NCBI GenBank assembly: GCA_040755755.1
Contig: JBFLZW010000035.1
Coordinates: 6,957 to 70,956 of the forward strand
DNA length: 64,000 nt
Origin: a bacterium
GTDB taxonomy: Bacteria; SZUA-182; DTGQ01
Reading direction: 5' to 3'
The number at the start of each line of letters is the position of its first letter. Position 1 is the stretch's first letter. Position numbers and translations under genes: made by a program. Shown here piece by piece: positions 55,088-64,000 of this stretch. Under the pieces are notes generated by a model. The model did no database searches, was not told the origin of the DNA, and worked only from the letters and a program-made list of their open reading frames with translations.

Positions 55088-55354
55088 GAATGGCACTTAC
55101 ATAAGCCAAGCTTATAATATAGAGAGGACACAAAGCACACAGGGAAAAAAGATCTCCCGCAGAAGACGCAGAGAACAACCAATCCGGCAAGGTCCTGATG
55201 AAAGTCGGGATATATCGATGTGTCAACGGCCTGGAAGCAAGCAAAAAGTAAAAAGGCACAAGGAGGAACTTGTTTTACTTTTACTTTTCAATGATATCCT
55301 CTGCGTCTCAGCGTCTCTGCGGGAGAATTACTAATTCTTATGTAAGTGCCATTC
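55088..55354. mobile_element. MITE copy 1 (267 bp)
   Basis: GAATGGCACTTACATAAG (55088-55105) is mirrored exactly by CTTATGTAAGTGCCATTC (55337-55354). The interior is non-coding and contains CTCTGCGTCTCAGCGTCTCT-type units and a Lys/poly-A/T-rich centre. It is colinear with 61243-61507, and its right part is inverted at 63875-64000. No target duplication was seen. Confidence 0.88.
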
Positions 55355-60687: not shown

Positions 60688-61239
60688 ATGAATAGAGATC
60701 AGGCCCTGTCCCTTATCCGGGTGGGGGTAAAAAATGAGAATCTGGTAAAGCACATGCTGGCCACCGAGGCCATTATGCGTACTCTGGCTGAGCATTTTGG
60801 CGAGGATAACGACCTTTGGGGACTGGCTGGCCTGGTTCACGATCTTGACTATGACCAGACTCTGAAAGAGCCAAAGCAGCATGGACGTCTTGGTGCCGGG
60901 GCGCTGGAGGCAGCCGGGGCGGACCCTCTCATCTGCCAGGCAGTAGTAGCCCACAGCCCGCACTATGACCAGCCGCGAAAGACGCGGCTTGAAAAAGCCC
61001 TGTTTGCCGCCGATCCCCTCTCCGGTCTGATCGTGGCCGCAGCCCTGGTCCATCCGGACAAAAGACTGGCCAGTCTGGATACTCCTTTTATCCTCAAGCG
61101 GTTTCAGGAAAAATGGTTTGCCAAAGGGGCCAGCCGGGAGCAGATCCGCGCCTGTCAAGAGCTTGCGCTCAGCCTTGAGGAATTCATCGGTCTTGGCCTG
61201 AAAGCCATGCAGGGGATTTCGGAGGAGCTGGGGCTTTAG
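60688..61239 (+). CDS. HD-domain phosphohydrolase
   Basis: The 183-residue protein has MNRDQALSLIRVGVKNENLV with an early His (KHMLATE, about 22), the HD pair in GLAGLVHDLDYDQ (His51/Asp52), a further His in KQHGRLGA and VVAHSPHYDQ (His89). These are the metal ligands of HD/HDIG hydrolases that act on nucleotides or small phosphate esters. The substrate is unknown. AAGGAG lies about 10 nt before the ATG. The stop TAG is inside the target duplication of the MITE that follows. Confidence 0.86.
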   Translation: MNRDQALSLIRVGVKNENLVKHMLATEAIMRTLAEHFGEDNDLWGLAGLVHDLDYDQTLKEPKQHGRLGAGALEAAGADPLICQAVVAHSPHYDQPRKTRLEKALFAADPLSGLIVAAALVHPDKRLASLDTPFILKRFQEKWFAKGASREQIRACQELALSLEEFIGLGLKAMQGISEELGL

Positions 61240-61547
61240 CCTGAATGGCACTTCCATAAGCCAAGCTTATAAATAGAGAGAACACAAAGCGCACAGGGGA
61301 AAACGATCTCCCGCAGAGGCGCAGAGAGCAACCAATCCGGCAAGGGCCTGATGAAAGTCAGGATATCTCGATGTGTCAGCGGCCTGAAAGCAGGCCAAAA
61401 GTAAAAAAGCACCAGGAGGAACTTATTTTACTTTTACTTTTCAATGATATCCTCTGCGTCTCAGCGTCTCTGCGGGAAAATTACTGATTCTTAGGTAAGT
61501 GTCATTCATACTAACTCGGCTTCTGTAAGTGCCATTCGCTTTAGCCT
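61233..61547. mobile_element. MITE copy 2 with 10-bp target duplication
   Basis: The element runs from GAATGGCACTTCCATAAG (61243) to CTTCTGTAAGTGCCATTC (ends 61537). It is flanked by perfect direct repeats GCTTTAGCCT (61233-61242 and 61538-61547). An inner, degenerate copy of the right terminus lies at 61490-61507. The interior is colinear with copy 1. The insertion is directly at the stop codon of the HD gene (TAG in GCTTTAGCCT) without changing its product. Confidence 0.88.
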
Positions 61548-63874: not shown

Positions 63875-64000
63875 GAATGGCACTTACATAAGAATTAGTA
63901 ATTCTCCCGCAGAGACGCTGAGACGCAGAGGATATCATTGAAAAGTAAAAGTAAAACAAGTTCCTCCTTGTGCCTTTTTACTTTTTGCTTGCTTCCAGGC
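63875..64000. mobile_element. MITE copy 3 (inverted, cut by window end)
   Basis: It starts GAATGGCACTTACATAAG and continues with sequence that is the reverse complement of the right part of copy 1 (55229-55354), including the CGCAGAGACGCTGAGACGCA units. It lies directly at the broken end of the vapC fragment. Confidence 0.88.

Follow-up and report, generated by a model that had tools for sequence, protein, structure and literature searches.

The 64,000-bp stretch of DNA analyzed here (the window) includes, towards its right end, a gene encoding an HD-domain protein, and the stop codon of that gene is the target of a 295 bp insertion. The insertion has no open reading frame of its own. It starts with GAATGGCACTT, finishes with AAGTGCCATTC, and is flanked exactly by two copies of the decamer GCTTTAGCCT. 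The initial annotation had claimed perfect direct repeats around an element at this position, and the decamers agree with that claim to the base. The inverted repeat of the element spans 23 nt at 87% identity (61243–61265 with 61515–61537). The right end is present twice, and the window holds two further copies of the same family (Table 1).

Table 1. Features of the element, its target and the other family copies in the window.
Feature	Coordinates	Strand	Remarks
HD-domain protein gene, 183 aa	60688–61239	+	host gene; stop codon is the insertion target
Left target-duplication decamer	61233–61242	.	GCTTTAGCCT; the upstream HD-domain gene ends within it (TAG stop)
MITE copy, 295 bp	61243–61537	+	no own ORF; from the used left end to the used (outer) right end
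Left terminal inverted repeat	61243–61265	+	GAATGGCACTTCCATAAGCCAAG; matches the IS4-subgroup pattern -AATR--------WTW----
Interior hairpin, left arm	61309–61327	+	CCCGCAGAG..; octamer NCGCAGAG units
Interior hairpin, right arm	61459–61477	-	
Inner right end	61490–61507	-	GAATGACACTTACCTAAG (inward reading); terminus of the other 27 two-ended copies
Decamer 3′ of the inner end	61508–61517	.	ATACTAACTC, immediately adjacent; fits NNNYTARNNN
30-bp tail	61508–61537	.	missing from the other 27 two-ended copies
Outer right end	61520–61537	-	GAATGGCACTTACAGAAG (inward reading); end used in the last transposition
Right target-duplication decamer	61538–61547	.	GCTTTAGCCT
Second copy of the same MITE family	55088–55354	+	two-ended, without a duplication (flanked by ATATTATATT and TATCTAAAGG)
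Third MITE copy	63875–64000	+	truncated by the contig end

The arms of the interior hairpin are inverted octamer repeats (NCGCARAG units with a CGCAGAG core), and the hairpin of the window copy is short by one octamer. The element has a strong predicted fold (z −5.9), as inverted ends plus a hairpin would yield. An RNA function was considered and set aside: the element has no Rfam match up to E=1, and a two-sided change was found in 1 of 71 predicted pairs, with a covariation term of −0.37. A promoter or terminator role was likewise rejected, there being one weak match of each, near chance level.

Copies in the host genome and the target rule

The host assembly (5.26 Mb in 88 contigs) contains about 30 near-complete copies that are 88–92% identical to the window copy, along with many half copies at contig ends. 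The end GAATGGCACTT occurs 123 times in the host genome versus 4 times for its reversed control. The initial annotation had proposed that the genome be searched for the 18-bp termini and that the repeats flanking each copy be listed. The search, allowing up to three mismatches, returned about 134 sites versus 6 for the reversed control. Both ends are readable in 28 copies, and in 24 of these they are bordered by a 10-bp duplication, perfect in 23 and with one mismatch in the other. The claim of transposition with a 10-bp target site is thus borne out. The probability that identical decamers occupy two given flanks by chance is about 1e-6 for one copy. With such decamers recurring in 24 of 28 copies, and with the excess of 18-mer ends over the control, the chance that the repeats and ends are a coincidence or an artefact of sequence composition is vanishingly small.

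In the remaining four of the 28, including the copy at 55088–55354, the flanks are unrelated or match only in part. The suspected cause is recombination or misassembly; recombination between copies, or misjoined contigs, is expected to leave a few copies lacking duplications. The right flank of one copy (L014) recurs at the end of another contig, C5. IS copies without target-site duplications are the subject of PMC11708052.

All 24 duplications fit NNNYTADNNN. Positions 4–6 read YTA in every case, i.e., C or T, then T, then A. Position 7 is A or G in 21 duplications, giving YTAR, and T in the other three. Every target is thus centred on TA, even though 10 bp are duplicated. The earlier suggestion that a 10-bp duplication points away from TA-targeting families therefore stands for the length of the duplication and fails for the target sequence. 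The families in question, of the IS630/Tc1-mariner type, duplicate TA only, and they are rejected because here 10 bp are duplicated and TA is merely the centre. The family shows the features by which bacterial MITEs are recognized: a length of 265–295 bp, no transposase, terminal inverted repeats of at least 18 bp, 10-bp duplications and dozens of copies. The element in the window is a genuine small gene-less mobile element, a MITE, and one of dozens of near-identical copies.

Most copies are 0–3 substitutions from the consensus over about 270 bp, and four have none; it follows that the family spread recently, in a burst. The window copy is the most diverged of the set, with 20 substitutions. 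A genome search of a relative in the same genus (G001) found none of these ends. There, the HD gene, 85% identical, faces the same convergent metG-like gene across a short spacer from which the element is absent. The spacers of the two genomes are too diverged for alignment, so the relative shows the orthologous locus free of the element but does not define the empty site to the base.

The insertion had been placed at a stop codon, and the TAG of the 183-codon HD-domain gene does lie inside the left GCTTTAGCCT. Duplication of the entire decamer left the gene with its stop. Among the 24 inserts, 6 have a long ORF whose stop falls within the duplication, in identical register each time. This is far above the 4% of all YTAR sites that lie at stops. 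Outside gene interiors, 14% of YTAR sites lie at stops, and a special preference for stop codons was rejected on that basis, 6 of 24 being only about twofold higher (p ~0.07). The stop-codon location largely follows from the target motif plus the avoidance of gene interiors, as follows. YTAR includes TAA or TAG on each strand, so some inserts would hit stops. Insertion would be tolerated mainly outside gene interiors, and, where a stop codon is hit, the duplicated decamer would restore it. The 10-bp YTAR rule thereby helps to explain how inserts can sit on stop codons without harm to the gene.

The doubled right end and the hairpin core

The initial annotation had described the right end as duplicated. 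The two right ends are indeed 83% identical over 18 bp and lie only 30 bp apart. The other 27 two-ended copies lack this doubling, and their terminus corresponds to position 61507, i.e., to the inner end of the window copy, which differs at two positions from the family end GAATGGCACTTACATAAG. The order in the window copy is the inner end, then ATACTAACTC, then the rest of a tail that finishes in the used end. A decamer at that given position would fit the YTAR motif by chance in about 0.4% of cases. Of its 30 positions, the 30-bp tail shares 26 with the end of another MITE subfamily (C13:21261) and 24 with its own family's left end.

These features suggest that ATACTAACTC is a relic of an earlier target duplication and that the window copy is probably a composite, produced by a nested insertion followed by mobilization from the outer end. 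A normal copy would have inserted about 20 bp inside the end of another element, leaving ATACTAACTC beside the inner end. A later jump would have used the copy's own left end together with the outer right end, and this jump would have created the GCTTTAGCCT duplication seen today. As reconstructed, the nesting would have been an insertion near the end of a GAATGGCACTTACAGAAGCC element; the basis for this origin is one decamer and the 26/30 match, to be read against 24/30 for the own-family left end.

A rival account would have the element's own right terminus duplicated locally, during or after insertion, with no nesting. The similarity and closeness of the two right ends favor it, as does the C31:7350/7364 locus, which also has two ends 14 bp apart. 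However, the tail beyond the 18-bp end is unlike the family right end (9 mismatches in 12), resembles other end types (3–5 mismatches in 12), and begins with a decamer that fits the target motif. We therefore regard local duplication as unlikely, though it deserves some weight, and prefer the nested origin as the simplest history. The double-ended copy also hints at a way in which elements of this kind may acquire new ends.

Two other loci bear on end-to-end arrangements. The C31 locus just mentioned (L069, positions 7350 and 7364) carries tandem GAATGGCACTTA ends and is a second doubled-end case. At L004 (C87:81479–81524), a MITE copy and the end of another element stand back to back with only the 10-bp duplication GTCTTAGACA between them, an arrangement that would result if one of the two had used the other's target duplication as its insertion site.

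The hairpin in the interior of the element is not confined to this family. A 24-base pattern representing it occurs about 200 times in the host genome, many times outside the MITE family. The same hairpin lies at the centre of another host family, which has GCTCWTAT ends, a length of 172–182 bp and 8-bp duplications and shares with the MITE stretches as long as 42 bp that are 98% identical. In a genome outside the host class (G068), a related octamer hairpin makes up the core of a 136-bp family with GTAACTGTTCACA ends and, again, 8-bp duplications, and in a genome of the same class (G005) the octamer hairpin stands alone. We tentatively raise the possibility, which we hold to be somewhat less than even, that the inverted (NCGCARAG)n hairpin is a module which transposons with unrelated ends have acquired independently of one another. 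If so, the core would either benefit its carrier or be itself mobile, and, were the module confirmed, the question would become what the core does for unrelated transposons.

The transposase and its relatives

The IS4 subgroup of the IS4 family is defined by ends of the form -AATR--------WTW----, a YREK signature, duplications of 10–13 bp and a size of 1400–1650 bp (De Palmenaer et al. 2008, PMC2266710). The family ends GAATGGCACTTACATAAG fit the end pattern, as does the window copy's left end, GAATGGCACTTCCATAAG, while its outer right end misses one of the three W/T/W positions. The 10-bp duplications found in 24 of the 28 two-ended copies fall in the published range. Having no ORF, the MITE shows none of the transposase features, i.e., the YREK motif and the single ORF in an element of 1400–1650 bp, and it is therefore filed as a non-autonomous derivative rather than an IS.

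The same 13-bp ends border complete ISs, each about 1.5 kb long, in five places: an unrelated genome (G065), Halomonas, Paraburkholderia madseniana and two gammaproteobacterial MAGs. Their duplications are mostly 10–11 bp. The G065 IS has GAATGGCACTTACTTAAG at both ends and 11-bp duplications, and its transposase is a DDE_Tnp_1 protein by Pfam; in the full IS of P. madseniana (L188), 10 bp are duplicated around a central CTAG. Four of the transposases, those of G065, both MAGs and Paraburkholderia, score 221–236 bits with NF033592 (IS4 family transposase; cut-off 115 bits), and all four carry the YREK motif, Y-x2-R-x3-E-x6-K. The initial annotation had attributed the element to an IS4-like enzyme, and these complete IS4-family elements with the same termini uphold that attribution.

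A scan for GAATGGCACTTACNTAAG across 84,980 species, excluding the window's own records, found at least 118 stretches, most of them in Gamma- and Betaproteobacteria. Of the 80 loci listed, 16 pair a matching second end with perfect duplications, which measure 11 bp in twelve cases, 10 bp in three and 12 bp in one. A 966-bp element in Calothrix sp. PCC 7103 (L184, 5903–6868) has the same ends and perfect 12-bp duplications, and it holds a remnant of the C-terminus of an IS4-type transposase, part of which is masked. In the host itself, other MITE subfamilies have the same GAATGGCACTTAC ends and different interiors; these are L080 (C13:21261–21404) and L081 (C22:211041–211185), of 144–145 bp, and L082 (C24:10596–10715), of 120 bp.

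Taken together, the ends, the duplications and the complete elements make it very probable that the MITE depends for its movement on a DDE transposase of the IS4 subgroup, acting in trans with a 10-bp stagger at YTAR sites. The enzyme would recognize GAATGGCACTTAC-type ends, excise the element and join it to the target with a 10-bp stagger, which would generate 10-bp duplications at TA-centred YTAR sites. Both the mobilization in trans and the cut-and-paste chemistry are deduced from sequence.

The initial annotation had advised looking for a full IS with the same termini; such elements exist in other lineages, and the search of the host genome yielded none. A protein search of the host assembly with the G065 transposase found no IS4-subgroup transposase, intact or partial. 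A profile built from four transposase sequences likewise gave no match there, the positive control, G065, scoring 888 bits. Matches to PF01609 (DDE_Tnp_1) in the assembly are short fragments, with no intact gene among them. These fragments were rejected as a local partner: they belong to other or degraded elements, and some are interrupted by the very ends discussed here.

Several contigs, including the window's own at 63875–64000, break inside MITE copies, about 125 bp from the element end, a pattern consistent with repeat collapse in assembly. Because contigs end in this way, a multicopy 1.5-kb IS could be missing through assembly or binning; alternatively, the partner was lost from the genome. 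Most known ISs and MITEs that carry these ends duplicate 11 bp at GGGTCNGACCC-like sites, so that none is a proven partner. The 10-bp YTAR rule is unlike that common rule, and the partner is therefore probably an undescribed member of the IS4 subgroup.

The lack of an IS4-subgroup transposase in the assembly, and the mismatch between the 10-bp YTAR rule and the 11-bp, GGGTCNGACCC-like targets that most external elements with such ends use, would also suit a relic moved by an enzyme of another kind (e.g., ISAs1-, ISL3- or IS66-like, with 8–10-bp duplications), its IS4-like ends having arisen by convergence. We consider this improbable. Convergence would have to account for end identity of at least 13 bp with five complete IS4-type elements and for agreement with both the published end pattern and the published duplication range. 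Moreover, the full IS at L188 duplicates 10 bp around CTAG, as the MITE does. An enzyme of the IS4 subgroup remains the preferred reading.

A literature search found no IS4-linked MITE with these ends, and a search for the end sequence and the hairpin octamers returned nothing relevant to bacterial transposons. The family is a clean case of an IS4-type MITE that was active recently, and its intact copies are numerous enough for the target rule to be read from sequence alone.

The likeness to known systems can be stated as follows. With the IS4 subgroup (PMC2266710), the MITE shares the end pattern and a duplication within 10–13 bp, and the complete elements with identical 13-bp ends share in addition the 1.5-kb size, the one transposase ORF and YREK. 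The MITE differs from the subgroup in having no transposase and a length of about 265–295 bp, and, unlike most of the external elements sampled, which duplicate 11 bp at GGGTCNGACCC-like sites, it has a 10-bp YTAR target. The full ISs at G065:C453 (L112) and L188, compared with the MITE by their ends, are alike in the termini (GAATGGCACTTACTTAAG versus GAATGGCACTTACATAAG) and, at L188, in the 10-bp duplication; they have NF033592 transposases, and they are unlike the MITE in being autonomous, about 1.5 kb long and resident in other lineages. With bacterial MITEs at large (reviewed in PMC10969869), the family shares its shortness, the lack of an ORF, the terminal inverted repeats, the target duplication, the many near-identical copies, a hairpin-forming interior and a location mostly outside genes; it is unlike them in its probable partner family, IS4.
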